Positions 42,223 through 60,131 of a DNA stretch of 64,000 bases are shown in pieces. Made by a program: the position numbers and the translations under genes. The notes below the pieces were generated by a model. It made no database searches and was not told the origin of the DNA. It saw nothing but the letters and a program-made list of their open reading frames with translations. Source of the DNA: Halomonas sp. M20 (GTDB lineage Bacteria > Pseudomonadota > Gammaproteobacteria > Pseudomonadales > Halomonadaceae); contig NZ_JACNMQ010000003.1 of NCBI RefSeq assembly GCF_020622265.1, positions 248,001 through 312,000 on the forward strand, given 5' to 3'. Within the stretch, counting starts at the first letter, position 1; each line of letters opens with the position of its first letter.

Positions 42223-42951
42223 CTAGCCGGGCAATAGTCGGCGCTGCATCTTGGCAGGCTGTGCACCGGGGAAGTTGCGCTCGATGAGGCGCATGGCGAT
42301 GGTCAGTACCACCGTCAGGGCAATGTAGATTCCCGCGATCAACAGCAAGGGCTCATAGACCAGGAAGGTCTCGTCGCGCACCAGGTTGGCGGCCTTGAGC
42401 AGATCCATGACGGCGATGGTGGATACCAGCGGCACGGACTTGAGCAGCAGGATCATCTCACCGGTGAGCGTGGGCAGACAGAGCTGCACGGCCCGCGGCA
42501 GCCATAGACGATAGAGCACCTGCCAGCGTGACAGCCCGAAGGCCCGGCCCGCGGCCAGTTCGCCGCTGGGCACGCTGAGCATGGCGCCGCGAAGCACCTC
42601 GCCGGAATAGGCGCCCACGCTGATGGTGAAGGTCAGCGCGCCGTAGAAGAACGGATCGCGCAGCAGCGGCCAGATGATGCTTTCCTGAATGCCGGGAATC
42701 TCCGGCAGTAGGCGCCCCACGCCATCATAAAAGAAGAACAGCTGCACCAGTAGCGGCGTGCCGCGGATCACCGTGGTGAAGCCGCGTACCAGCATGGCAA
42801 TCGGCTTGGGCGCGGTGATCTGGACCAGGGCGATGATGACCGCCAGTATCAGCCCCAGGATGCCGGACACCGCCACCAGCAGCAGCGTGTTGACGAAACC
42901 CGTCCAGAGATATTCTTGATAGAAAGGATCGAAGATCCAGGAAAAATCCAT
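42223..42951 (-). CDS. Amino-acid ABC transporter permease (HisM type)
   Basis: A 242-residue inner-membrane permease of the polar amino-acid family, with five or so hydrophobic segments. The family motif region reads VRGFTTVIRGTPLLVQLFFF near residue 55 and the cytoplasmic contact loop GELAAGRAFGLSRWQVLYRL near residue 130. It is the last gene of the transporter set. With its partner permease, ATPase and binding protein it should bring in a basic amino acid such as arginine, given the adjacent AruH-like enzyme. Confidence 0.9.
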   Translation of the reverse strand: MDFSWIFDPFYQEYLWTGFVNTLLLVAVSGILGLILAVIIALVQITAPKPIAMLVRGFTTVIRGTPLLVQLFFFYDGVGRLLPEIPGIQESIIWPLLRDPFFYGALTFTISVGAYSGEVLRGAMLSVPSGELAAGRAFGLSRWQVLYRLWLPRAVQLCLPTLTGEMILLLKSVPLVSTIAVMDLLKAANLVRDETFLVYEPLLLIAGIYIALTVVLTIAMRLIERNFPGAQPAKMQRRLLPG

Positions 42952-42996
42952 GGTGTTGTTCTCTTGGAAGTTGGCTTAGACCTCTTTCAGCAGTGC

Positions 42997-43707
42997 CTAG
43001 GCGTTGTCTGAAAGCTGGCCACGCCGAACGACGCGCTCCGCCCAGCCGAAAAGCGCGTTGGAGCCCAGTGTCATGACCAGATAGAGCGCTCCCGCGACGC
43101 TGTAGAACAGGAAGTAGGAGCGGGTGCTCGCCGCCGCTTGCTGGGCGGTGAAGAACAACTCCTCGAAACCGATCACGCTGATCAACGCCGTATCCTTGAC
43201 CAGGATCAGCCACAGGTTGGACATGCCGGGCAGGGCATTAGGCAACATGCCGGGAATCACGAAACGATGAAACCGGGTCCAGCGCGAGAAACCATAGGCA
43301 TCCGCGGCTTCGAGCTGGCCGCGAGGAATGGCCAGAATGGCGCCGCGAAACACCTCGGTCATGTAGGCGCACTGAACGAAGGCCAGCACCCCCACGGCAG
43401 TGACGAAGCCGCTGATCTGCATGGCGCTTTCGAAGCCCAGCGCACCGAGCCCCGCATTGAGTGCCTGGGTGCCGGCGTAGTACAGCAGGATGATCAGCAA
43501 CAGCTCGGGGATGGCACGTACAAGGGTGGAGTAGGCGGTGGCCAGGGCCTGTAATGGTCCCCAGCCGCTCAATCTAGCGCTGGCGCCGATCAGCCCGAGC
43601 GCCAGGCCGATGGCATAGGCCAGTAGGGCGATCTCTATCGTCACGAGTGCCCCTTCCAGGATCGGCCCGGCCCACTCCTGGAGTCCTTCGTTCTGATAGT
43701 TTTCCAT
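42997..43707 (-). CDS. Amino-acid ABC transporter permease (HisQ type)
   Basis: A 236-residue permease paired with the gene that follows. Family segments are TLVRAIPELLLIILLYY and the ATPase-contact loop GQLEAADAYGFSRWTRFHRF. The ATG at 43707 (MENYQNEGL) is preferred to a TTG-initiated frame extension starting at 43746. It lies 81 bases after the binding protein gene on the same strand. Confidence 0.9.
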   Translation of the reverse strand: MENYQNEGLQEWAGPILEGALVTIEIALLAYAIGLALGLIGASARLSGWGPLQALATAYSTLVRAIPELLLIILLYYAGTQALNAGLGALGFESAMQISGFVTAVGVLAFVQCAYMTEVFRGAILAIPRGQLEAADAYGFSRWTRFHRFVIPGMLPNALPGMSNLWLILVKDTALISVIGFEELFFTAQQAAASTRSYFLFYSVAGALYLVMTLGSNALFGWAERVVRRGQLSDNA

Positions 43708-43788
43708 GGTGAGATTCTTTATCGAATGAGCAGGATCTTCCGCCAAGGCTTTACCCTGGCGGAAGAAGCGATGAGCTAGGAAAGGCGA

Positions 43789-44574
43789 TCAGCCGCCGCA
43801 GATATCCGTTCCGAAATACTGCTGCGAAAGCTCGCTGCACCTGCCGTTTTCCACCACTGCGGCGATGGCGTCGTTGAGCTTGCTTTCGAGCTCGTCATCG
43901 TTTTTGCGCAGCCCGATGCCGATACCTTCACCAAAGGCTTCATGCTTGGGCGCCGTGGCAATGATGGCGTACTCCTGGGCTTCGTCCCGCTCGACAAAGG
44001 CGGTCATGACGATCTTGTCGGCGAGCATGACATCGATACGCCTGGCCAGCAGATCGCGGTTGACCTGCTCCTGCTGGTCGTAGATCTTGAGCTCGACGCC
44101 GCTGTCGCGCAGTTCCCGCCGCGCATAAGTGGCGTTTGTGGTGGCGCCCTGCACGCCGAGAATCTTGCCGTCCAGCCCTTCGGGAATCTCGAAGTCGGCG
44201 TCCTTGGCTGCCACATAGGCCGCCGGGGTGTAGTAGTAGGGATCGGTGAAGTCGATGACCCGCTTGCGTTTATCGGTGATCGACAGGGAGTTCATGATCA
44301 TGTCGATCTTGCCGGAGTTCAGTGCCGGAAAAATCCCGCTCCAGCCGGTCGGGGTGACCTCGCACTGCACCTGCATTTCCTCACACAACGCTTGGCCGAG
44401 CTCGACCTCGAAGCCGGTCCAGTCGCCATTGGCGCTCTTGTAGCTAAAAGGGGGGTAGGGTTCCGCTGCAATGCCGATCTTCAGCGGCTCCTGGGCCAGG
44501 CTGGCGGTGCTTAGGGCCAAAGCGGCGAGTCCAGCCGCCATGACCAAGGTGTGCTTCATCAGAGTCGTTTTCAT
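43789..44574 (-). CDS. Periplasmic amino-acid-binding protein of the ABC transporter
   Basis: A 261-residue family 3 solute-binding protein. The signal peptide is clear (MKTTLMKHTLVMAAGLAALA, cut near SLAQ-EP). The mature part begins LKIGIAAEPYPPFSYKSANG and has GWSGIFPALNSGKIDMIMN and TDPYYYTPAAYV, as in lysine-arginine-ornithine binding proteins. A pair of cysteines near the N-terminal lobe and another near the C-terminus may form disulfides. GAGGATAG precedes the ATG. Confidence 0.92.
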   Translation of the reverse strand: MKTTLMKHTLVMAAGLAALALSTASLAQEPLKIGIAAEPYPPFSYKSANGDWTGFEVELGQALCEEMQVQCEVTPTGWSGIFPALNSGKIDMIMNSLSITDKRKRVIDFTDPYYYTPAAYVAAKDADFEIPEGLDGKILGVQGATTNATYARRELRDSGVELKIYDQQEQVNRDLLARRIDVMLADKIVMTAFVERDEAQEYAIIATAPKHEAFGEGIGIGLRKNDDELESKLNDAIAAVVENGRCSELSQQYFGTDICGG

Positions 44575-44601
44575 CAGCTATCCTCGTTTGTTGTTTTCTT
44601 T

Positions 44602-45390
44602 CTATGCCACGCTGGACAGAAACTGCCGGCAGCGTGCGTTGCTCGCTCGTTCGAAGACCTGTTGTGGCGTGCCGGCTTCGGCAATTTCCCCTTCATGCAG
44701 GAACACCACCTGATGGGAGACTTCCCGGGCAAAGCTCATTTCATGGGTCACCATCAGCATGGTGCGCCCCTCGGCGGCGAGATCGCGTATCACACCCAAC
44801 ACTTCGCTTACCAATTCTGGGTCCAGAGCTGACGTGGGCTCGTCGAACAATAGCACCCGAGGCTCCATGGCCAGTGCTCGGGCAATGGCAACCCGCTGTT
44901 GCTGGCCGCCAGAAAGATAGGCTGGGTATTGGTCGCGCTTGTCGGAAAGACCTACCTTGGCCAGATAATGCTCACCGAGCTTGACCGCCTTACGCCGGCT
45001 CAAGCCGCGTACCCGCAACGGCGCCTCAATGACATTGCCCAGCACGGTCAGATGCGGCCAAAGATTGAACTGCTGGAACACCATGGTGACCTTGGCGCGC
45101 AGGCGATGGATTTGGCGGCGATCCAGACCGGTGATGTTGCCCTCGGCGTCATGAGTGAAGTGAATGTCCTCATCGGCGATGGTTAGTTCACCTTTATTGG
45201 GACGCTCGAGCAGGTTCATGCAACGCAGTAGCGTGCTCTTGCCGGAACCACTCGAGCCAATGATCGAGACCACCTGGCCTTCAGCGACACTAAGGGAGAC
45301 ATCCTTGAGGACCTCGAGTTCTCCAAAGCATTTGACCAGATGACGAGCATCGATCATTGGGGCAGACGTTGTTGTTGTATTCATAGGCAC
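44602..45390 (-). CDS. Amino-acid ABC transporter ATPase
   Basis: A 262-residue ATPase of the HisP class. Walker A is GSSGSGKST, the signature is YLSGGQQQRVAIARAL, Walker B is VLLFDEPTSALDPE and the switch histidine is in MVTHEMSFAREV. The Q-loop is VFQQFNLWPH. The gene can start at GTG 45390, directly after the aminotransferase stop, or at ATG 45384. It is the energy unit of the amino-acid transporter below. Confidence 0.93.
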   Translation of the reverse strand: MPMNTTTTSAPMIDARHLVKCFGELEVLKDVSLSVAEGQVVSIIGSSGSGKSTLLRCMNLLERPNKGELTIADEDIHFTHDAEGNITGLDRRQIHRLRAKVTMVFQQFNLWPHLTVLGNVIEAPLRVRGLSRRKAVKLGEHYLAKVGLSDKRDQYPAYLSGGQQQRVAIARALAMEPRVLLFDEPTSALDPELVSEVLGVIRDLAAEGRTMLMVTHEMSFAREVSHQVVFLHEGEIAEAGTPQQVFERASNARCRQFLSSVA

Positions 45391-46572
45391 TCAAGCTGTT
45401 GTTGTCAGGCATTGCTCGGCACAGCGTTCGATCCGTTTGCAGGCCTCGCCCAATAGTTCCGCTTCCACCGTCAGACTCAGGCGCACGAAGCCCGCCGCCG
45501 AGGGGCCGAAGGCCTCGCCGGATAGCACGGATACATTCTGCTCCGCCAGCAGGCGGTCGGCGAAGGCCTGGGTGGATAAACCGGTACGGCGAATATCCAC
45601 CATCATGAACATGCCGGCCTTGGGTGTGAGCACCTCAAGTACCTCGCTGTCGGCCAGGGTCGCCAGAACCACATCCCGGCGCTGCCGATAGGTCTCGCGC
45701 ATCTGCGCGAGTTCTTGCGGCGGATGCTCCAGGGCGTGACAAGCAGCGTCCTGGATAAAATCCGGGCAGCCATAGAGCATGCATAGCGCCAGATTGGTCA
45801 GGTGCTCGATCAGCTTCTCGGGACCGATCACCCAGCCCAGTCGCCAGCCGGTCATGGCATGGGATTTCGACAGGCTGTCCACCACCGCGGTGCGTTCCGA
45901 CATGCCAGGGAGGGTGGCAGGGGAGATATGTTCGTTCTCGAAGACAAGCTCGCCGTAGACTTCATCGGAGATCAGCCACAGGTCATGACGCTGACACGCA
46001 TCGGCGATGGCCTGCCAGTGTTCTCGGCTCAGTACCTGGCCGGTGGGGTTGTGCGGGCTGTTGACCAGCATGGCCTTGGTGCGTGGTGTGACGGCCGCCT
46101 CGATATCCGATGCCCGGGGCAGGAAATCCTCGTCCGCGTGCAGCGATACCCGCACCAGAGTGGCGCCAGCGGCTTGCAAAGCGGCTTCATAGGTGACGTA
46201 CATGGGCTCGAAGACGATCACCTCGTCGCCAGGGTCGAGCAGACACTGAGCGACGGCGTAAAGCCCGCACTGGGCGCCGGCCAGCACAGCGACGTTATCC
46301 GCCGTGGCGCTGCCGCCGCGCTGGCGATGTTGGGCGGCAATCAGTTCCCGCAGGCGCAGCTTGCCCTGAACGTCGGCGTAGTGGGTCGCGCCGGCCTGCA
46401 AGCTCGTCACGGCGCTGTCTATGATGGGCTGGGGCGTGACGAAGTCCGGATCGCCGATGGAGAGCACGATGATATCCTCGCCCCGGGCCTTGCGCTCCAT
46501 GGCGTGATAGTGAATATCCCAGGCGGCTGCGCCTTCACCGGCGATGCGATTCGTCAGGTCAGAGTAATGCAT
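45391..46572 (-). CDS. aruH: Arginine:pyruvate transaminase-like enzyme (AruH)
   Basis: A 393-residue class I PLP aminotransferase closely resembling Pseudomonas aeruginosa AruH, which moves the alpha-amino group of arginine to pyruvate and starts the arginine transaminase pathway. The N-terminus MHYSDLTNRIAGEGAAAWDI and the segment AMTGWRLGWVIGPEKL match AruH, and the PLP lysine is K236 in SLSKSHAM. It abuts a basic-amino-acid-type ABC transporter, which fits arginine use. AruI, the next enzyme of the pathway, is not in the window. A related guanidino or N-methylated amino acid is an alternative substrate. Confidence 0.8.
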   Translation of the reverse strand: MHYSDLTNRIAGEGAAAWDIHYHAMERKARGEDIIVLSIGDPDFVTPQPIIDSAVTSLQAGATHYADVQGKLRLRELIAAQHRQRGGSATADNVAVLAGAQCGLYAVAQCLLDPGDEVIVFEPMYVTYEAALQAAGATLVRVSLHADEDFLPRASDIEAAVTPRTKAMLVNSPHNPTGQVLSREHWQAIADACQRHDLWLISDEVYGELVFENEHISPATLPGMSERTAVVDSLSKSHAMTGWRLGWVIGPEKLIEHLTNLALCMLYGCPDFIQDAACHALEHPPQELAQMRETYRQRRDVVLATLADSEVLEVLTPKAGMFMMVDIRRTGLSTQAFADRLLAEQNVSVLSGEAFGPSAAGFVRLSLTVEAELLGEACKRIERCAEQCLTTTA

Positions 46573-46584
46573 GATGGCTCCTTT

Positions 46585-47508
46585 TTACTGGATAGCGTCC
46601 TGGGCTGGTTGTCCATCCCGCCTCGTCACTCCCTCTAGAAACGCCCTGATCTGATCCGGATGATCCTCGATCCAGGCCTCGGCGACGTCTTCCAGATTCT
46701 TTTCCTGTTGACTGAACTCGTCGATGAACCGGCTTTGTTCCTCCGCGCTGAACACGACTTGATCCAGCAGCTTGGTCAGATTGGGATTGGCTTCGCTGAA
46801 ATCACGCCGAACGATGGTGCGGATATCGCTTTTGCCGTTCTCCTTACCGTAGACGCTTTCCGGGTCGTCGAGAATGGCCATGTCGTACTTGGGCGCCATC
46901 CAGTGCGGTGTCCAACCGTAGAAGACGATCCAACGCTCATCCCGGGCGGCGGCATCGACCTCCGCCAGCATGCCCGCAGTAGAGGATTCGCGGATGTTCC
47001 AGTCGCCCAGGCCGTAGACATCCGCATTCACGGCGTCGTTGATGGATTCGCTGACGGTGGAGCCGCTTTCGATAGAGTAGAACTCGCCATCGAAGCGCTT
47101 GCGATTTTCCGGATCATTCAGTTGGGCGGCGCTGGTGATGCCCGCATCATGCACATAACCCGGCACCGCGAATCCCATGCGCGCACCCTCGACGTTGTTG
47201 CCCAGATCGACGATGGCATCGGACTGTATGGCGGCGTCATAAATCTTCTGCTGGGCAGGCAGCCAACCCCCGAGAAAGACGTCGGTATCGCCGGATTGCA
47301 GGGTGCTGTAGCCCACGGTGCTGCTCATGTCGATACGGTTGGCCCGGTAGCCCAGATCGTCGATGAGCTTTGCGACGATTTCGGTCTTGACCGTTACCCC
47401 GGGCCAAGGAGGCACCACGAAGTTGACCGTATCCGCTTCATCGGCGGCCTGAACGGTGAGGGGAAGTAGCGTCAAACTGGCAATAAACAATGTCTTGCGT
47501 AGTGTCAT
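46585..47508 (-). CDS. Betaine/choline-type ABC substrate-binding protein (ProX/ChoX class)
   Basis: A 307-residue exported binding protein with a signal peptide (MTLRKTLFIASLTLLPLTVQAA) one residue too long to quote exactly as a run but clearly cut after QAA. The mature part has VNFVVPPWPGVTVKTEIVAK, MSSTVGYSTLQSGDTDVFLG and WIVFYGWTPHWMAPKY; the aromatic residues resemble those of the OpuAC family that cage trimethylammonium groups. No matching permease or ATPase is adjacent, so it may feed a transporter encoded elsewhere. It lies between the oxygenase/HD pair and aruH on the same strand, suggesting a quaternary amine as pathway substrate. Confidence 0.85.
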   Translation of the reverse strand: MTLRKTLFIASLTLLPLTVQAADEADTVNFVVPPWPGVTVKTEIVAKLIDDLGYRANRIDMSSTVGYSTLQSGDTDVFLGGWLPAQQKIYDAAIQSDAIVDLGNNVEGARMGFAVPGYVHDAGITSAAQLNDPENRKRFDGEFYSIESGSTVSESINDAVNADVYGLGDWNIRESSTAGMLAEVDAAARDERWIVFYGWTPHWMAPKYDMAILDDPESVYGKENGKSDIRTIVRRDFSEANPNLTKLLDQVVFSAEEQSRFIDEFSQQEKNLEDVAEAWIEDHPDQIRAFLEGVTRRDGQPAQDAIQ

Positions 47509-47588: not shown

Positions 47589-48176
47589 TCAGTTCTTGGC
47601 GGCTACCTCAGGTGTTTGCTCGGCACCGAACGGGGCGCGACTCATGATGCGCTCCACCATGGGCACGAAGTGCTCGAGAGGCAAGGTGTCGTAGTCCGGA
47701 TCGAAGGCGCACTGATCCCAGTCGTCGCAGAAGCGCACGGTGCGGGCATAGGCCGTGTGGTCGCGATATTGCTCCCGGGCCTTGGGGTCGAGGCCGTAGA
47801 AGTGGCGATAATGGTAGCCTTGGAACAGCTCGTGGTGGCGAATCATCCAGGTGTTGAGCGGGTCGATGAAGGGCTCGAGAATCCCCGCGGCGATTTCCGC
47901 ATGATTGGCCGGCGCCAGGTCGTCGCCGATATCATGCAGCAGGGCGCAGACCACGGTTTCCTCGTCGGCGCTGTCGCGCAGCGCCCGGGTGGCGGTCTGC
48001 AGGCTGTGCTCGAAGCGGTCCACCGGGTAGCCGTGATTATCGCCCTTGAGATGTAACAGGTGTTCGAGCACCCGGCGGCTGGCGTCGTTCTGATACGCTT
48101 GGAAGTGCTTGTCGATGATCTGCCAATCCTCGGCGCGGCTTTCGTCGAAGCGCTTGAAGGTTGCCTGGTTCATCAT
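47589..48176 (-). CDS. HD-domain protein coupled to a 2-oxoglutarate oxygenase (PhnZ/TmpB-like candidate)
   Basis: A 195-residue HD protein. Probable metal ligands are H57 (RFEHSLQTA), H81-D82 (LLHDIGD), H92, H114/H115 (IRHHELFQGYH) and an aspartate in CDDWDQCAFD. HD oxygenases such as PhnZ and TmpB use a mixed-valent di-iron site to cleave a hydroxylated phosphonate to phosphate; they are paired with a 2-oxoglutarate oxygenase, as here. The pair overlaps by four bases (ATGA). In PhnZ a glutamate and tyrosine precede the EHSLQ motif; here the aligned stretch is GYPVDRFEHSLQ, with tyrosine but no glutamate, so the substrate or chemistry may differ. A phosphohydrolase is the alternative. Confidence 0.7.
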   Translation of the reverse strand: MMNQATFKRFDESRAEDWQIIDKHFQAYQNDASRRVLEHLLHLKGDNHGYPVDRFEHSLQTATRALRDSADEETVVCALLHDIGDDLAPANHAEIAAGILEPFIDPLNTWMIRHHELFQGYHYRHFYGLDPKAREQYRDHTAYARTVRFCDDWDQCAFDPDYDTLPLEHFVPMVERIMSRAPFGAEQTPEVAAKN

Positions 48177-49294
48177 GCGCCCTCCCTTAGTTGTGTCTGT
48201 AGAACGCGGCGACGGCTGGCGGTGCTATCCCGGTCCACGTAACCCTGGCGCATATGGCGTATGCCGCCTTCCAGTTGAAAGGCGGTGCGACCGTGGAACA
48301 AGCGGTAGTTGTCCAAGATCAGCATTTCACCCTGGTCGAGCTTGAGATGCACGGTCAGTTCATCGGAGGTGATCAGCTCGTAGAAGCGCTGCCGGGCGGC
48401 GTAGTAGTGCTCCAGGGTGGCCGGATTGTGGGCGGGAATGCGCTCGGTACGATTGGAAAAGCGCACCCGGCGTAGCTGACCTTGGCTGTCGAGCTCAATC
48501 AGCGGCCCTTCGCTTTCCAGATGGGTTGTGTCATCGGTGTACACGAACTCCGTGGCGAGCTGGCTCAGGCAGTCGAAGTGCTCCGGAGACTCTTCTCGCA
48601 GCCGCCGGGCCGCCATGAAGCCGTCCACCAGGGTGCTGTCACCACCCTCCGCAGCGTTGGTCAAGCAATGCAGCCAGATATAGCCAGGGATGGGGTCGCG
48701 ATAGGGGTTGTCGGTATGCGGTTCCAGGCCGCGCTGGGTCATGGTCAGGTCATAGGCTTGAGGCACGGATTTGACGTCGGCGATGCCGCCCCAGTTGGTG
48801 CGCCGCAGCGGGCCGATGCGATCGATCAGCGCCTGCATGCCGTCTTCATCATTAGGCACACCGCGCACCCGCACGAAGCCGTAGCGGCGCAGATCCTCCA
48901 GCATCGCCAGCAGCCGCTCGTCGCTTTGCAGCGCAACATCGAAGTCTGCCTCTGGCAGCGTGGCAAGCCCTGCATCCCAGAGAATCAGGTCGTCGGGTAT
49001 GTCGCGCTTGCTGACATCACCTGTCTCGCGAAGCGCCGCTAAAGGAAAGGCCGTGCGATGTGCGTCGCTGAACTGCAGGCGGAGTGTTTCACCCTCGACC
49101 TTGGCTTCTTCGATGGTCAGGTCGAGAGGTAGCTGAGCGGCCTCGATCAGGCGCTGACCGGTCTGGGCATCCAGCGTCTCGGTATCCGGGGCGCGCTCCC
49201 GCAACCACAAGGCGGCGAAGCAGCGCTCCCGGTCTTGATCGCGCAGGACTAGACGACGGCCTTGGGCATCCAGCGTGATGTCGGCGGTGGTCAT
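48173..49294 (-). CDS. Gamma-butyrobetaine-dioxygenase-like 2-oxoglutarate/Fe(II) oxygenase (TmpA-like candidate)
   Basis: A 373-residue oxygenase with an N-terminal domain of the GBBH type (1-90, LVLRDQDRERCFAALWLRER) and a TauD-fold catalytic domain. Iron ligands are H193, D195 (LEPHTDNPY) and H334 (LFHGRTAF), and the 2-oxoglutarate arginine follows in MRQGYVDRD. TmpA, which hydroxylates trimethylaminoethylphosphonate, and gamma-butyrobetaine hydroxylase both belong here, so sequence alone does not decide. Coupling to the HD gene and the betaine-type binding protein favours a TmpA-like or novel role. The AraC regulator is divergent. Confidence 0.78.
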   Translation of the reverse strand: MTTADITLDAQGRRLVLRDQDRERCFAALWLRERAPDTETLDAQTGQRLIEAAQLPLDLTIEEAKVEGETLRLQFSDAHRTAFPLAALRETGDVSKRDIPDDLILWDAGLATLPEADFDVALQSDERLLAMLEDLRRYGFVRVRGVPNDEDGMQALIDRIGPLRRTNWGGIADVKSVPQAYDLTMTQRGLEPHTDNPYRDPIPGYIWLHCLTNAAEGGDSTLVDGFMAARRLREESPEHFDCLSQLATEFVYTDDTTHLESEGPLIELDSQGQLRRVRFSNRTERIPAHNPATLEHYYAARQRFYELITSDELTVHLKLDQGEMLILDNYRLFHGRTAFQLEGGIRHMRQGYVDRDSTASRRRVLQTQLREGA

Positions 49295-49352: not shown

Positions 49353-49398
49353 GCCATAATTGCAATCGAGTTTGATTTTTTTGGCCATATGATTGCAG
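49353..49398. promoter_or_regulatory. Candidate AraC half-sites between regulator and oxygenase
   Basis: Two similar direct repeats, GCCATAATTGCA starting at 49353 and GCCATATGATTGCA starting at 49384, are 31 bases apart, close to three helical turns. They lie just before the AraC-type regulator and in the divergent region shared with the oxygenase. AraC-family proteins often bind direct repeats. The match is short. Confidence 0.35.
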
Positions 49399-49407
49399 TT
49401 ATTTGCC

Positions 49408-50421
49408 ATGAATGAACCTTTCTCGACAATTTGGCCCTATCCGCATCCGGACATTCCACCGGTGCTGCGGCCGGAAGAGGCCGAACACACCATTGATGTC
49501 TGGCTGCTGCCCAAGTTCTCGATGCTGTCTCTCGTTTGCCTGCTGGAGCCGCTGCGGGTCGCCAATCGTTTCGGTCGCGCACTGTTCGCCTGGCGTTTGC
49601 TATCGAGTACCGGTGAGCCGGTGGTGGCCAGTAATGGCGTACGTACTGATGTGGATGGCCGGCTCGAAGAGCTCAAGGCGTGCGAACTGCTGATGGCGAT
49701 CTCTTCTTACGAGGCCGAAGCAACGGTGACTGCCGGCGATCGCGCCATGCTGCGCCAGGTCGCGGCGTTTGGTGGCAAGGTCGGGGGGCTGGATACGGCG
49801 CCCTTCATTCTGGCCCGGGCCGGGGTACTGGAACGTCAGCCGGTGGCCTTGCATTGGGAGAGTATCCCGGCGTTCCAGGAGGAGTTTCCGCATCTTGTAG
49901 TCAGCCGGTCACGCTTCGAATTCACTCCCCAGTGTTTGACCGGTTCCGGCGGCGCGACGGGCATCGATATGATGCTGCAATGGATCGAGCAGGGTTATGG
50001 GCCAGCGTTGGCGGAGGCGGTCAGTCGCCAACTGGTGCACCAGCGCTTTTCCGAAGGCGAGTTGCGTGAACATCAGGCTCAACGGCAGCTAAGGCATTTG
50101 CCGCGCACGGTGGCCAACGCCCTAGCCATCATGGAGGCGCACCTGGGCCAGGTATTGCCGATACCGGAAATCTGTCGGCTGGTGGGGCAGTCCCAGCGCC
50201 AGCTATCCCGCCAATTCCAGGCGCACTTCAATGAGACCCCCAAACAGTGCTACCTGGGTATGCGCCTGGATCAAGCCCGGCGCATCCTCACCGACAGCCG
50301 TTGCCGAATCACCGAGGCAGCGCTGGCCACGGGGTTTACCCATCTGGCGCATTTTTCCCGGGCGTATCAGATGCGCTTCGGCGAGCGTCCCAGTGAGACC
50401 GCGGAGCGGGGTGCTATTTGA
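49408..50421 (+). CDS. AraC-family regulator with GlxA-type ligand domain
   Basis: A 337-residue regulator. Residues 28-195 form the DJ-1/PfpI-like domain (IDVWLLPKFSMLSLVCLLEP, GGLDTAPFILARAG) and about 225-330 hold two helix-turn-helix units (LPIPEICRLVGQSQRQLSRQ and ITEAALATGFTHLAHFSRAY). GbdR and CdhR, which sense glycine betaine and carnitine in Pseudomonas, have this plan. The ATG at 49408 is preferred to a TTG at 49393. It is divergent from the oxygenase/HD pair, its likely target. Confidence 0.9.
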   Translation: MNEPFSTIWPYPHPDIPPVLRPEEAEHTIDVWLLPKFSMLSLVCLLEPLRVANRFGRALFAWRLLSSTGEPVVASNGVRTDVDGRLEELKACELLMAISSYEAEATVTAGDRAMLRQVAAFGGKVGGLDTAPFILARAGVLERQPVALHWESIPAFQEEFPHLVVSRSRFEFTPQCLTGSGGATGIDMMLQWIEQGYGPALAEAVSRQLVHQRFSEGELREHQAQRQLRHLPRTVANALAIMEAHLGQVLPIPEICRLVGQSQRQLSRQFQAHFNETPKQCYLGMRLDQARRILTDSRCRITEAALATGFTHLAHFSRAYQMRFGERPSETAERGAI

Positions 50422-52575: not shown

Positions 52576-53862
52576 TTACTGCTCGACCACAGCCTCCTGA
52601 TGTGACTGATCGAACGCCTCGACCCGCCGTTGGCGTTCGGCTCGCCACAACATGCGCAGCCGGGAACGGATCTCATCGCGCTCCATGTAGCAGCCCTGCA
52701 GCCAACGGCGGCCTGAACTGCCCTCGAAGGCGTCCCGGGCGTGTAGCAGGCGACGGTTGTCGAAGATCACCAGATCGCCGGGGTGATAGGTGAAGCGCTG
52801 GGCGAAACGCGGCTCCTTGAGCATGCGCTGCAGCTGCATCAAGGCGTCATAAGCCGGTTCGATGTCATCAAACGGTGCCATCAATGGGCCGCGCAGGAAG
52901 TCGGCGATGCGTACCTCAACCAGGCGCCCTCGATCATCGAGCTTGATCATCGGATCGAACCAGACGTAATCCGTCACCTTGGCGGTGTTGGCGTAGCACC
53001 AATGAACACGAGTCAAGGTCGCGAAAGCCTCGGGATGCTCATCGCGCAGCGTCTCGGCAATGGCGAAGCCGTCCGCCATTACCGCCTGACCGCCTTCGAC
53101 GCTGTTTTCCAGGCAGTGCAGGAACTGCAGCCCCGGTTGATATTCCCGGGTGGGCAGATCCACGTGAAAGGGCAGGGCGATGGAAGTGTAGGCGTTGGAG
53201 TCCGGGTCTGGTTTAGCCTTGACGTCGAACAGGGTGCCGAAGTTGGTATCCCGCATGGGGCCTATGCGCTCGGCGATGCGCGCCAGGGTGCCGGGCTCCG
53301 TAGGCAGGTTGCGCAGGCGCACCAGCCCGTGACCGAGCACCGCTTTCAGGGCGCTTTCAAGCAGCGCCTCGAACTGTGGGTCGTCTTTCGTATGGGTATC
53401 TGTATGAGAGAGCCAACCGCTGGCGTCCAGGCTGATAGGTTCCGCCATGTCCTTGCCGGTCCAGGTGGTCACCGGCACCAGCGGCGCGTCTGGTTGCTCG
53501 AGGTTGGAGTAGTCATTCGCCCGCAGCCAGCCTGGGTGAAAATGCAGGGTGCGATTTTCTGGGGCAAAGGTGACGCTCAAGGCGCCGTGATCGTCCAGCC
53601 TCGCCGCGCTGATCGTCGGCCATCCGCCGAGACTCGAAAGATCGAGGATACGCTCCCGGGTGGCGGGATTGACGGTGCTCTCGTCGGCGGCATTCTCGCG
53701 CAGCCAGACGCTGTGATAGTGGCTGACTCGTCCATCCTGCCAATGCAGTTCAAGCACGCGTTCATCGTGGCTGACCCGGGCAGGCCATACCTCAATGGGC
53801 CAGGCGTCGTAATCCGGTGTGAGGGGAAGGCGATAATCGGTCGCTGTGCTGGTCATGATCAT
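52576..53862 (-). CDS. Gamma-butyrobetaine dioxygenase-like 2-oxoglutarate oxygenase
   Basis: A 428-residue oxygenase with the GBBH N-terminal domain (HDERVLELHWQDGRVSHYHS, SVWLRENAAD) and a TauD-type catalytic domain. Iron ligands are H233, D235 (LPFHVDLPTREY) and H374 (LLHARDAF), and the C-terminal arginine region is GRRWLQGCYMERDE. The sequence fits gamma-butyrobetaine hydroxylase (carnitine synthesis) better than the paralogue at 48.2 kb. An AraC regulator lies just upstream on the same strand. No gene for carnitine breakdown is in the window, so the product use is unknown. Confidence 0.8.
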   Translation of the reverse strand: MIMTSTATDYRLPLTPDYDAWPIEVWPARVSHDERVLELHWQDGRVSHYHSVWLRENAADESTVNPATRERILDLSSLGGWPTISAARLDDHGALSVTFAPENRTLHFHPGWLRANDYSNLEQPDAPLVPVTTWTGKDMAEPISLDASGWLSHTDTHTKDDPQFEALLESALKAVLGHGLVRLRNLPTEPGTLARIAERIGPMRDTNFGTLFDVKAKPDPDSNAYTSIALPFHVDLPTREYQPGLQFLHCLENSVEGGQAVMADGFAIAETLRDEHPEAFATLTRVHWCYANTAKVTDYVWFDPMIKLDDRGRLVEVRIADFLRGPLMAPFDDIEPAYDALMQLQRMLKEPRFAQRFTYHPGDLVIFDNRRLLHARDAFEGSSGRRWLQGCYMERDEIRSRLRMLWRAERQRRVEAFDQSHQEAVVEQ

Positions 53863-53988: not shown

Positions 53989-54954
53989 TCAGTCGGGATG
54001 CCGATCCGAGCGGGGGCTGAGGCTGTAGCGTCCTTTATAGGCTCGGGAGAAACTCGAAGGCGAGGTAAAGCCACAGGCTAGGCTGATACTCAGAATATCG
54101 TGATCGGTTTCCTTTAGAAGCTGACGCCCACGGCCGAGACGCAGCGCAAGATAGTGATCGCGAGGGCTTGCGGTCAGTTCCTGCTCGAACAGCCGTTGCA
54201 GTTGGCGCAGCGAAATACCCACTCTCTCGGCGATATCGCCGACGGATAACGGCATCTCGATATGCTGCTCCATCAACGCTACCGCCTCGATCAGAGCATG
54301 GCGATGAGTGCCCAGCCGGCGGGTCAGGGTCAGGCGCTGATGGTCATGCTGGGTGCGCATGCGGGCATGAATCAACTGTTCCGAGACCGCGTTGGCAAGC
54401 TCGTCGCCATGACGCCGCGTAATCATCGCCAAAGCCATGTCCATGGCGGCAGCACCGCCGGCACAGGAAAAGCGCTCAGTGCTTATTTCGTAAAGTGATT
54501 CAGTGGCGTCGATCTCGGGGAAACGTTCGCGAAACGTCGGCAGGCTTTCCCAGTGCATTGTCACACGCTGCCTTTCAAGTAACCCTGCGCGAGCCAGAAT
54601 GAAGCTGCCGGTATCGATACCCCCCAATACACAGCCGCGTTGCGCCAACCGGTTGAGCCAGCGAATTAGCTCGCGGGACAGGGTCGCTTCCGGCTCGAAG
54701 CTGGCCACCACTGCCAGACTGGCTAACGGCGGAGCCGAGTCCAAGGACGTATCCGCTAGCAGGGTCATGCCATTGCTGGCGCTGATGGGCTGGCCATCCT
54801 GGCTGATCACATGCCAGCAAAAGACCTCCTTGCCCGCAATGCGATTGGCGATGCGCAGTGGCTCCACCGCGGAGAAGAACGCCATCATCGAAAAGCGGGG
54901 CAGCAATAGGAACCCGATGGGCTCGGGCCAAGGCCCTTGATAGTCCAGGCGCAT
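53989..54954 (-). CDS. AraC-family regulator with GlxA-type ligand domain, second copy
   Basis: A 321-residue regulator with the DJ-1/PfpI-like domain at the N-terminus (PIGFLLLPRFSMMAFFSAVE, GGIDTGSFILARAG) and two helix-turn-helix units at the C-terminus (LSVGDIAERVGISLRQLQRL and ILSISLACGFTSPSSFSRAY). It resembles CdhR/GbdR regulators of carnitine and betaine genes. It is transcribed towards the butyrobetaine-type oxygenase 126 bases away and may control it. Confidence 0.9.
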   Translation of the reverse strand: MRLDYQGPWPEPIGFLLLPRFSMMAFFSAVEPLRIANRIAGKEVFCWHVISQDGQPISASNGMTLLADTSLDSAPPLASLAVVASFEPEATLSRELIRWLNRLAQRGCVLGGIDTGSFILARAGLLERQRVTMHWESLPTFRERFPEIDATESLYEISTERFSCAGGAAAMDMALAMITRRHGDELANAVSEQLIHARMRTQHDHQRLTLTRRLGTHRHALIEAVALMEQHIEMPLSVGDIAERVGISLRQLQRLFEQELTASPRDHYLALRLGRGRQLLKETDHDILSISLACGFTSPSSFSRAYKGRYSLSPRSDRHPD

Positions 54955-58043: not shown

Positions 58044-60131
58044 ATGGCACGTATAGGCGTGGACGTAGGCGGTACTAATACAGACTTAATATTGGAAACC
58101 AGTGACAATGACTCGGTGGGGAAAGGAATATATCAGCACAAAGTACCTAGTACGACGGATGATCAATCCGTAGCGGTGATGCAAGGCATCATCGAAATAT
58201 GCGAAAAAGCAAGAATCAACAAAAATGAAATTGACCATATCGTTCATGGAACCACAGTAGCAACGAATATCTCCATTGAACATAATGGTGCCGAAGTGGG
58301 CATGCTTACTACAAAAGGTTTCCGCGATATATTACATATTGGAAGACATAAAAGACCACATAACTTTTCCTTGCATTTCGATGTTCCATGGCAAACGTCT
58401 CCTCTAGTAAAGCGCCGTAATCGAATCCCCATCAGTGAACGGGTATTACCTCCCAATGGCGACGTGGAAACACCTTTAGATGAAGAGGAAGTTAAAGCAG
58501 CAGCTGAAAAGTTAAAGAGAGAGGGCGTTAAATCTGTCATTATCGGCTTTCTCTACTCATTCCTAAATCGCGACCACGAAATCCGTGCCAAGGAAATCGT
58601 CAAAAGCATCATGCCGGATGCCTACGTTTGCTGTTCTTGTGAAGTGGTTGATGCCATGCGGGAGTATGAACGGTTTTCAACAACCGCGATGAATGCCTAC
58701 ATTGGACCTAAAACATCTTACTACCTAAAGCATCTAGAAAGTGAGTTAAAAGAACAGGGAATTCACGCCGATCTACGCCTCATGCAATCCAATGGCGGTG
58801 TGGCGACCATCGATAGCTGCTGTGAGAAGCCGGTTAATATTTTGATGTCGGGCCCCGCAGGTGGTGTGATTGGTGGGCATTATTTCGCAAATCTGGACGG
58901 AGAAAAAAATATCATTACCGTGGATATCGGCGGAACGTCGGCCGATATTTCCACGCTTTCGGATGGTGGTATAAAAATAATGAACCCACGGGACTCCTAT
59001 GTTGGAGGACACCCCGTGATGGTTCCAATGATTGATCTTATCACTATCGGCGCCGGTGGAGGTTCAGTTGCTTACGTAGATGAAGCCGGTGGTTTTCAGG
59101 TAGGACCACGCTCTGCAGGCTCGATGCCAGGGCCTGCTTGTTATAACCGAGGCGGGACCGAGCCGACAGTCACTGATGCCAATATCGTGCTAGGACGCCT
59201 GGATCCCGATCAGATGCTCGGCGGTGATCTACAAGTAGATCCTGCGCTCTCCATCGAAGCCATTAGAGAAAAGGTGGCAGAGCCCCTTGGGCTAAGTGTA
59301 AAGGATGCGGCGCTGGGTATTATTAAAATAATAAATAACAATATGGCGCTCGCAATCCGCTCGAATTCTGTCGCTAAAGGGGTTGATCCACGCGATTACG
59401 TATTAATGCCCTTTGGTGGTGCAGGCCCGGTTCACGGCCCCGCACTAGCCGAAGAAATGAATGCCAAGGCAGTGCTATGCCCCCCTGCACCTGGTATCAC
59501 GTCGGCCGCCGGTTTGTTGACGACAAACCTACAATACGAAGCCACACGTTCTCTGCTGTGTGATCTCGACACTATTTCGAAAAATGATTTCGAAAAAGCC
59601 ATTGTTTATGTGAATGAACTCGAAGAAGAAGTCACGGGTAAACTTCGTGATGATGGGGTCGATGATGCCCATATCAATTTAATACGGCTAGCCGAATGCC
59701 GGTATCATGGGCAGGGGTTCGAGTTGCGTGCCGACGTCCCGGCAGGCGAGTTGGATCAAGATAAGCTGGCGACTGTAATTGAGAATTTCCATAGAACGCA
59801 TGAAGCGGATTATGGGTATCGTTTCAATGATGCGGCAGTCGAACTCGTGACATTGCGTGTTATCGGCACATCGGAGTCAAAAAAGCTAACCTGGGATACC
59901 TTGAAAGAAGCAAGTGTCGACGATCTCAAAGAAGCACTGATGTATGAGAGGAAAACGACATTCGATGATGGTGAAGAGCTGCTTACGCCCCGCTATAACA
60001 GGAGTTTATTGGGAGCCGGTCAAGTTATAGAAGGCCCTGCCATGCTGATGCAACATGACTCTACTTCACTGGTACCTCCTGGTTGGGTAGCCAAAATATC
60101 TGCCCATGGAAATCTTATAATTTCTAAATAG
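58044..60131 (+). CDS. hyuA: ATP-dependent hydantoinase (N-methylhydantoin amidohydrolase), subunit A
   Basis: A 695-residue protein of the hydantoinase/oxoprolinase A family with an actin-like ATP site: MARIGVDVGGTNTDLIL (phosphate 1), ITVDIGGTSADISTL (phosphate 2) and FGGAGPVHGPALAEEM. With subunit B it opens the hydantoin ring using ATP. The neighbouring N-carbamoylsarcosine amidase suggests N-methylhydantoin as substrate; acetone or acetophenone carboxylases and oxoprolinase share the fold. GGGAG precedes the ATG and the stop is 14 bases before subunit B. Confidence 0.87.
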   Translation: MARIGVDVGGTNTDLILETSDNDSVGKGIYQHKVPSTTDDQSVAVMQGIIEICEKARINKNEIDHIVHGTTVATNISIEHNGAEVGMLTTKGFRDILHIGRHKRPHNFSLHFDVPWQTSPLVKRRNRIPISERVLPPNGDVETPLDEEEVKAAAEKLKREGVKSVIIGFLYSFLNRDHEIRAKEIVKSIMPDAYVCCSCEVVDAMREYERFSTTAMNAYIGPKTSYYLKHLESELKEQGIHADLRLMQSNGGVATIDSCCEKPVNILMSGPAGGVIGGHYFANLDGEKNIITVDIGGTSADISTLSDGGIKIMNPRDSYVGGHPVMVPMIDLITIGAGGGSVAYVDEAGGFQVGPRSAGSMPGPACYNRGGTEPTVTDANIVLGRLDPDQMLGGDLQVDPALSIEAIREKVAEPLGLSVKDAALGIIKIINNNMALAIRSNSVAKGVDPRDYVLMPFGGAGPVHGPALAEEMNAKAVLCPPAPGITSAAGLLTTNLQYEATRSLLCDLDTISKNDFEKAIVYVNELEEEVTGKLRDDGVDDAHINLIRLAECRYHGQGFELRADVPAGELDQDKLATVIENFHRTHEADYGYRFNDAAVELVTLRVIGTSESKKLTWDTLKEASVDDLKEALMYERKTTFDDGEELLTPRYNRSLLGAGQVIEGPAMLMQHDSTSLVPPGWVAKISAHGNLIISK

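Follow-up and report, generated by a model that had tools for sequence, protein, structure and literature searches.

An oxygenase–HD gene pair in Halomonas sp. M20 with a probable di-iron oxygenase distinct from PhnZ and TmpB

In the 64,000-nucleotide stretch of Halomonas sp. M20 DNA analysed here (contig NZ_JACNMQ010000003.1, positions 248,001 to 312,000; hereafter, the window), a gene for an Fe(II)/2-oxoglutarate (2OG) oxygenase is coupled to a gene for an HD-domain protein. We propose, with a probability of about 0.5 and by analogy with known enzyme pairs, that the two products form a two-step oxidative catabolic module in which hydroxylation is followed by HD-type oxidative cleavage, probably at a carbon–carbon (C-C) bond, of a non-phosphonate cationic amine. 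By the same analogy, the pair would work like TmpA/TmpB without belonging to that system, its HD protein probably being of the di-iron oxygenase kind. The gene architecture, the conservation of the metal ligands, the split of the HD family and its recurrent coupling to 2OG genes were established directly.

Gene architecture and the HD protein family

Among HD-domain oxygenases, the excerpt of a 2020 review on which we draw lists only MIOX, PhnZ and TmpB (PMC8177086), and later variants include methylphosphonate enzymes and the fused PhoF (PMC10574752). In the PhnY/PhnZ and TmpA/TmpB pairs, a 2OG enzyme hydroxylates the substrate and the HD enzyme cleaves the adjacent bond with O2 (PMC8177086, section 1.4). 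The pair in the window is laid out as follows:

47589-48176, minus strand: HD-domain protein of 195 amino acids, probably a di-iron oxygenase, in a family separate from PhnZ/TmpB, with H57, H81, D82, H92, H115 and D154 and the signature Y50, D85, Q119
48173-49294, minus strand: TmpA/GBBH-like Fe(II)/2OG oxygenase of 373 amino acids, with H193-D195-H334
48173-48176, minus strand: four-base overlap ATGA, in which the HD start codon lies over the oxygenase stop codon

Both open reading frames (ORFs) were confirmed at these positions, with the four-base overlap that a first-pass annotation of the sequence had described; ATGA is common to the two, and the oxygenase gene is upstream of the HD gene. 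The H193/D195/H334 set that the annotation reported for the oxygenase, which joins a TauD fold to a GBBH-like N-terminal domain, is present in full. The genome (15 contigs, 3.89 Mb) holds a second oxygenase–HD pair, 46% (HD) and 35% (oxygenase) identical to the one in the window and again overlapping by four bases. A scan for promoters and terminators gave fewer matches than in shuffles and was not used.

The arrangement is conserved among relatives. An HD match (E ≤ 0.001) was found in 26 of 58 genomes, comprising Halomonas sp. M20 and its relatives, two of the 26 matches being weak. At 53 related loci (L numbers below denote loci), 52 from Halomonadaceae and one from Saccharospirillum, with some strains contributing two, the last four bases of a TmpA-like ORF lie within the HD ORF in all except L031, where a contig end cuts the locus; the frame was checked in each case. 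The coupling of oxygenase and HD genes is more than chance, and the failure of conservation that the first-pass annotation had named as a ground for rejecting its proposal was not seen. Gene calls by codon score lacked the HD gene in 8 of 80 rows (L009, L011, L027, L032, L033, L056, L064 and L083), and there it was placed by homology.

Searches by sequence and by fold place the HD protein beside the known HD oxygenases. A PDB search with a 46-member family profile returned PhnZ (2.7e-14) and TmpB (1.9e-12), the next entry being a dGTPase-like protein at 0.037, and profile–profile comparison matched PhnZ/TmpB with a probability of 99.4. The AlphaFold model of the window protein (mean predicted local distance difference test score 94.8) gave ten Foldseek matches below E 0.001, all of them TmpB or PhnZ, with template-modelling (TM) scores of 0.58-0.66. 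These were followed by two chains of a tRNA-processing enzyme (E 0.029 and 0.064, TM 0.45-0.46), and then by two glycyl-tRNA synthetase chains (TM 0.30-0.33) and MIOX (E 0.27-0.29, TM 0.49-0.52), while HD hydrolases among the top 50 rows reached a TM score of at most 0.35. In both fold and profile, the protein is thus closer to HD oxygenases than to HD hydrolases, and the clustering with phosphohydrolases that had been raised as an adverse outcome did not appear. From sequence and model, it is probably an oxygenase of the PhnZ/TmpB class with a mixed-valent di-iron site. With MIOX it shares the HD di-iron fold and the lack of a YxxE loop (PMC8177086), and 12 of the 46 family members, the window protein not among them, match Pfam MIOX (PF05153) weakly (E ≤ 0.01, best 1.2e-4); its fold match to MIOX is, however, weaker than that to PhnZ/TmpB. 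A PF05153 search of 200 Pseudomonadota genomes gave no match there or in controls and is therefore uninformative on MIOX. PbfA, which the first-pass annotation had listed as an HD relative, is a pyridoxal-5'-phosphate (PLP)-dependent lyase (PMC10574752).

The metal site of the family is intact and its pocket is different. H57, H81, D82, H92, H115 and D154 align with the PhnZ ligands H34, H58, D59, H80, H104 and D161 (PMC7916636), which bears out the earlier statement that the protein has a full ligand set, and the six ligands (H...HD...H...H...D) are kept in 111 of 111 family rows. In contrast, four PhnZ positions that read E27, H62, K108 and R158 in all eight TmpB/PhnZ rows are changed: the first is Y or F in 106 of 111 family rows and E in none, the second is D in 104, the third is Q in every row, and the fourth is E, A, D or H in 103. 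The YxxE substrate loop (Y24/E27 in PhnZ and Y30/E33 in TmpB; PMC8177086, section 1.4) aligns with N47/Y50 of the window protein, so that the partner tyrosine is absent as well; tyrosine stands at the Y24 position in 16 of 111 family rows and in 7 of 8 TmpB/PhnZ rows. The first-pass annotation was therefore right that the glutamate before the EHSLQ motif of PhnZ is missing, Y50 being in its place, and its suspicion of a different substrate gains support. The family also lacks some 19 residues that PhnZ and TmpB share around a QGG motif. In PhnZ, E27 orients the amino group of the substrate, H62 orients its hydroxyl, and R158 is part of a proton chain with D161 (PMC7916636).

The HD tree, a quick and short search run without bootstrap, separates 111 family members from eight TmpB/PhnZ rows on a long branch with a Shimodaira–Hasegawa-like approximate likelihood ratio (SH-aLRT) value of 100. 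Its 119 rows derive from 220 sequences, reduced to 170 by removal of exact duplicates and own-genome copies, to 121 by thinning the Halomonadaceae to eight plus the window protein, and to 119 by removal of contained copies. The window protein scores far below the cut-offs of the phosphonate models, with 41.1 versus 214.6 bits for Phn-HD (TIGR03276), 39.1 versus 300 for TmpB (NF049941) and 24 versus 300 for PhnZ1, and a TIGR03276 search of the Halomonas sp. M20 genome likewise stayed below the cut-off. By these sequence measures, the HD protein belongs to a separate family, neither TmpB nor PhnZ. The family is present in 62 of 398 sampled Pseudomonadota genomes (E ≤ 1e-10, Halomonas sp. M20 included), three of which (G196, G451 and G482) have weak matches only, at 43-56 bits. 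Its most similar genes among named records come from uncultured Halomonas, Halomonas sp. PR-M31 and Modicisalibacter coralii; no relative was found in a phage collection, and no title or abstract among the open-access matches listed, several result lists being partly covered, describes the family; one listed paper, PMC4510999, contains the terms COG4341 and HD phosphohydrolase. Public annotation of its members is inconsistent, with 'inositol oxygenase family protein' in Phaeobacter (L147:8004-8627) and 'phosphohydrolase' in Sphingobium (L148:5882-6481).

The oxygenase and its recurrent pairing with HD genes

The window oxygenase passes the TmpA model NF049936 (439.2 bits, cut-off 400) and fails the GBBH model TIGR02409 (270 bits, cut-off 414.75), while the genome's own paralog (325.5 bits), the copy on plasmid pF045_1 (347.5) and the copy at L085 (329.1) fall below the TmpA cut-off. 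In a tree of 32 oxygenases, four TmpB-partnered TmpA proteins form one clade (96/93), and 15 of the 19 oxygenases adjoining new-family HD genes, the window protein among them, form its sister clade (89/89, not starred); a second L085 oxygenase groups with GBBH-like proteins, as does the second oxygenase of the window. In human GBBH numbering, N191D occurs in 15 of 15 members of the sister clade, and the window protein further has W181A (F in TmpA), Y194M (Y or F in TmpA) and N292S. Loss of the two aromatic cage positions, W181A and Y194M, marks the Halomonadaceae branch together with Gluconacetobacter L085; at L133, L134, L149 and L190, the oxygenase retains the F/F/Y cage described in Pseudomonas GBBH (PMC4736438). 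In human GBBH, N191 and N292 bind the substrate carboxylate (PMC4497603).

The pair thus shares with TmpA/TmpB of Leisingera caerulea (6npb/6npa) a TauD-type 2OG oxygenase beside an HD protein, the same six HD ligands, a passing score on the TmpA model and a four-base overlap, which is also found in the TmpB locus L141. It differs in an HD protein that lies far under the TmpB model and in a separate clade, without YxxE and with H62, K108 and R158 replaced, and in an oxygenase of the sister clade with N191D, W181A and Y194M. The earlier description as a TmpA/TmpB-like pair consequently stands insofar as this is a coupled 2OG/HD oxygenase-like pair whose nearest solved relatives are TmpA and TmpB/PhnZ, and falls insofar as the HD protein is outside the TmpB family and the oxygenase outside the TmpB-partnered clade. 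PhnY/PhnZ and Gimesia PhnY/PhnZ1 offer the same succession of 2OG hydroxylase and HD di-iron oxygenase, and PhyH-type partners occur both in PhnZ-like loci (L111, L112) and in new-family loci (L058, L118, L211, L214, L215, L217); the window partner, however, is TauD-type rather than PhyH-type, and the PhnZ pocket residues are absent from its HD protein. GBBH/BBOX shares the TauD fold and the GBBH-like N-terminal domain, but the window oxygenase lies below the GBBH cut-off, and a more GBBH-like protein is encoded by a separate gene (52576-53862).

Coupling to 2OG genes recurs beyond the relatives of Halomonas. Of 83 further HD loci, a set that excludes the Halomonadaceae loci, the genome's own paralog and the TmpB/PhnZ loci and includes some close relatives, 14 have a 2OG gene next to the HD gene on the same strand, at most 300 bp away. 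The partners are TauD/TmpA-type in six (L075, L078, L085, L134, L149, L190), PhyH-type in five (L058, L211, L214, L215, L217) and, as a third 2OG family, an aspartyl/asparaginyl-type hydroxylase directly before the HD gene in three (L065, L068, L069). Four-base overlaps reappear in the PhyH–HD pairs L211, L215 and L217, and TauD- and PhyH-partnered rows are scattered over several parts of the HD tree.

Genomic neighbourhood and amine context

Around the pair, the window encodes the following:

46585-47508, minus strand: OpuAC/ChoX-type binding protein scoring 249 bits on the ChoX model (cut-off 379), with W35, W82 and W199 at tryptophan positions of ChoX (2reg)
45391-46572, minus strand: class I PLP aminotransferase, in the same gene run as the pair
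42223-45390, minus strand: amino-acid ATP-binding cassette importer of lysine/arginine/ornithine (LAO) type, with ATPase (44602-45390), binding protein (43789-44574) and permeases (42997-43746 and 42223-42951)
49393-50421, plus strand: divergent GlxA/GbdR-like AraC regulator, with 204 of the 480 bits required by the GbdR model
52576-53862, minus strand: second GBBH-family oxygenase, its cage F/F/Y as in Pseudomonas GBBH (PMC4736438), 328 bits on the GBBH model, cut-off 414.75
53989-54954, minus strand: GbdR-like regulator adjoining the second GBBH-family oxygenase

The betaine-type binding protein and the GlxA-type regulator that the first-pass annotation placed next to the pair are both there, and the betaine-type surroundings that it read from them are supported. 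The product of 52576-53862 is, from its sequence, probably gamma-butyrobetaine hydroxylase and not part of the pair. No PhnJ match was obtained in the Halomonas sp. M20 genome, and no phosphonate gene was recognised among those HD-locus neighbours that were read by eye, with no dedicated search. Genes related to caprolactamase alpha subunits occur near both HD pairs of the genome (window 58371-60131 and L133:12769-14820; 518 and 520 bits, cut-off 1000), which may be coincidence.

Within distance limits, the 53 related loci carry the regulator in 51 cases, the ChoX-type gene in 47, the aminotransferase in 46, and the importer genes and an AruI-type (5-guanidino-2-oxopentanoate decarboxylase) gene in 44 each. 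The AruI-type gene directly follows the HD gene in most relatives, for example at L010:10576-12168, whose copy scores 805 versus 500 bits on the AruI model. It is absent from the window locus and its two closest relatives, L006 and L007, and the genome has a copy elsewhere (L224, 777 bits); genome searches with the AruI, aldolase and carnitine-dehydrogenase models also gave matches in control genomes.

Outside this set, an amine context is found on plasmid pF045_1 of Pseudomonas aeruginosa (L149), in a cassette of TauD, HD, ChoX, choline dehydrogenase and aldehyde dehydrogenase genes. On NCBIfam models, ChoX scores 458 versus 379 bits and the choline dehydrogenase passes its subfamily model (756 versus 605) and misses the betA equivalog (674 versus 732); the aldehyde dehydrogenase lies under the cut-off of every one among the 25 models shown. 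At L218 and L219, a carnitine-type operon contains an HD gene that shares four bases with a carnitine 3-dehydrogenase gene; an acyl-CoA dehydrogenase gene follows and a BKACE-like gene lies near. The L219 carnitine 3-dehydrogenase, the one copy on which the model was run, scores 596.6 versus 592 bits. Carnitine, which this overlap raised as a substrate, is not a direct answer for the window pair: the same contig carries an L-carnitine dehydrogenase gene (454 versus 414 bits) with a BKACE-like gene at another site (L230). Within 4 kb of the HD gene, a betaine-type binding protein is encoded at L056 and a sarcosine-oxidase-beta (SoxB) gene at L071, L073, L077, L188 and L192.

Counted over the 83 loci, as loci with the marker inside 4 kb against ORFs beyond, the figures are 2 and 1 for OpuAC-type proteins, 11 and 4 for GlxA/GbdR, 5 and 1 for SoxB, 3 and 3 for BKACE, 4 and 4 for carnitine-dehydrogenase-like proteins, and 6 and 4 for acyl-CoA dehydrogenase. 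None of these markers is in strong excess on its own, and GlxA/GbdR shows no clear excess; support for the amine reading comes from informative loci rather than from the HD family as a whole. A class II aldolase/adducin gene lies beside the HD gene or at most 4 kb away in 11 of the 83 loci (L056, L058, L068, L069, L137, L138, L145, L148, L153, L202, L204), from distant lineages and including a 12.9-kb Sphingobium plasmid, a count that is circular in the same way as that for the 2OG models discussed below.

Proposed chemistry and competing explanations

On the precedent of the two enzyme families, the TmpA-like Fe(II)/2OG enzyme would hydroxylate an imported amine at a carbon close to its cationic nitrogen, and the HD protein, as a mixed-valent di-iron oxygenase, would use O2 to cleave the bond next to the new hydroxyl. 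Both pockets have changed at sites that fit phosphonate in the known pairs, so that the group released is probably something other than a phosphonate. With the residues of the phosphonate pairs gone from the HD family and the anion site of the oxygenase altered, the likeliest bond is C-C, in a cleavage of the myo-inositol-oxygenase kind, and the product may be a betaine-type acid that enters glycine-betaine catabolism. Candidate substrates are homocholine or beta-alanine betaine, delta-valerobetaine or another product of trimethyllysine or basic amino acids, and a guanidino compound; those derived from basic amino acids are considered because an aminotransferase and a basic-amino-acid importer adjoin the pair and an AruI-type decarboxylase is encoded in relatives.

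Several observations weigh against this proposal. No 2OG gene adjoins the HD gene in 69 of the 83 loci, and the low background, one 2OG ORF more than 2 kb from HD in 866 kb, is biased downwards by models built partly from the very neighbours counted, which makes the comparison circular. Only 11 of the 83 loci, L205 by a weak match, have a ChoX/ProX-type, SoxB, BKACE or carnitine-dehydrogenase-like gene no more than 4 kb away, and four of the 11 are near relatives or fall in one clade. Four of the 19 HD-adjoining oxygenases lie outside the sister clade, three of them (L075, L078 and L126) forming a separate clade in which N191 is retained. Loss of two aromatic cage positions weakens the case for a trimethylammonium substrate in the window's clade, and the anion-site argument is soft, since human and Pseudomonas-type GBBH also differ at N191/N292 and these positions do not fix the substrate. 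The Pfam HD_4 model is matched by 13 of the 46 HD-family members. K108 and R158 of PhnZ are phosphonate contacts by our assumption, and the scheme gives no clear role to the class II aldolase, AruI-type decarboxylase and aminotransferase genes beside the pair.

A somewhat unlikely alternative is that the pair serves the catabolism of basic amino acids or guanidino compounds together with the aminotransferase, the AruI-type decarboxylase and the LAO-type importer, on a substrate without trimethylammonium. The frequency of these three genes at the related loci (46, 44 and 44 of 53), the score of the L010 AruI copy and the eroded cage of the window's oxygenase clade all favour it. Yet the ChoX-type binding protein is present at 47 of the same loci, with the tryptophans conserved in the window copy, and both Kushneria (L084) and Onishia (L082) keep oxygenase, HD and ChoX genes without an aminotransferase or AruI-type gene. 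Moreover, among 96 loci scanned, only L204 (aminotransferase) and L066 (AruI-like), each at 28% identity, have such a gene within 6.5 kb outside the Halomonadaceae set.

We regard as improbable an oxidative decarboxylation, in which the 2OG enzyme would turn a substrate such as beta-alanine betaine into an alpha-hydroxy carboxylate, which the HD enzyme would convert to glycine betaine and CO2. This scheme keeps the logic of TmpA/TmpB with a carboxylate in place of the phosphonate, and the choline dehydrogenase- and betaine-aldehyde-dehydrogenase-like genes of pF045_1 could make beta-alanine betaine from homocholine, but basic residues have been lost and aspartates gained, D85 in the HD protein and D191 in the oxygenase, which fits a carboxylate less well than a neutral or cationic group. 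There is a similarly small chance that the HD protein is a hydrolase, a phosphatase or other, that merely shares an operon with the oxygenase. The six ligands alone do not prove an oxygenase, because dinuclear six-ligand sites are also found in HD phosphatases such as YqeK (PMC8177086); the many loci without an adjacent 2OG gene and the one public record naming a member phosphohydrolase point the same way. Against this stand the first rank of PhnZ/TmpB in fold and profile searches, with a wide gap to hydrolases, and the coupling of three different 2OG families to HD. Cleavage of the carbon–phosphorus (C-P) bond of trimethylaminoethylphosphonate or a close phosphonate by a divergent TmpA/TmpB with a rebuilt HD pocket, the first choice until family models, tree and pocket residues were considered and the chemistry put forward by the first-pass annotation, is quite improbable. 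In its favour, the oxygenase lies above the TmpA equivalog cut-off in a clade sister to the TmpB-partnered TmpA proteins, the structures nearest to the HD protein are those of TmpB and PhnZ, and a betaine-type binding protein adjoins. Against it, the HD protein stays below the cut-offs for TmpB, PhnZ1 and Phn-HD and separates from TmpB/PhnZ with an SH-aLRT value of 100, E27, H62, K108 and R158 are mostly or wholly replaced, some 19 residues are gone, the genome has no PhnJ match, and the oxygenase carries the sister-clade changes.

For phosphonate surveys, the signature of Y or F at the E27 position, D at H62 and Q at K108 provides a simple separator of the HD families. The TmpA model can over-call, since it is passed here although the partner is not TmpB, and phosphonate use could be mis-assigned. 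More broadly, and tentatively, the family may represent a further kind of HD di-iron oxygenase, present in about one sixth of sampled Pseudomonadota genomes, that cleaves C-C rather than C-P bonds of hydroxylated quaternary or cationic amines and is paired with three 2OG families across its tree; relays of two oxygenases would then be a general route from onium compounds to glycine-betaine-type acids. A large and sharply defined sister family, with intact ligands, another pocket and repeated 2OG partners, makes it testable whether HD oxygenase chemistry extends beyond inositol and phosphonates into amine and betaine catabolism.

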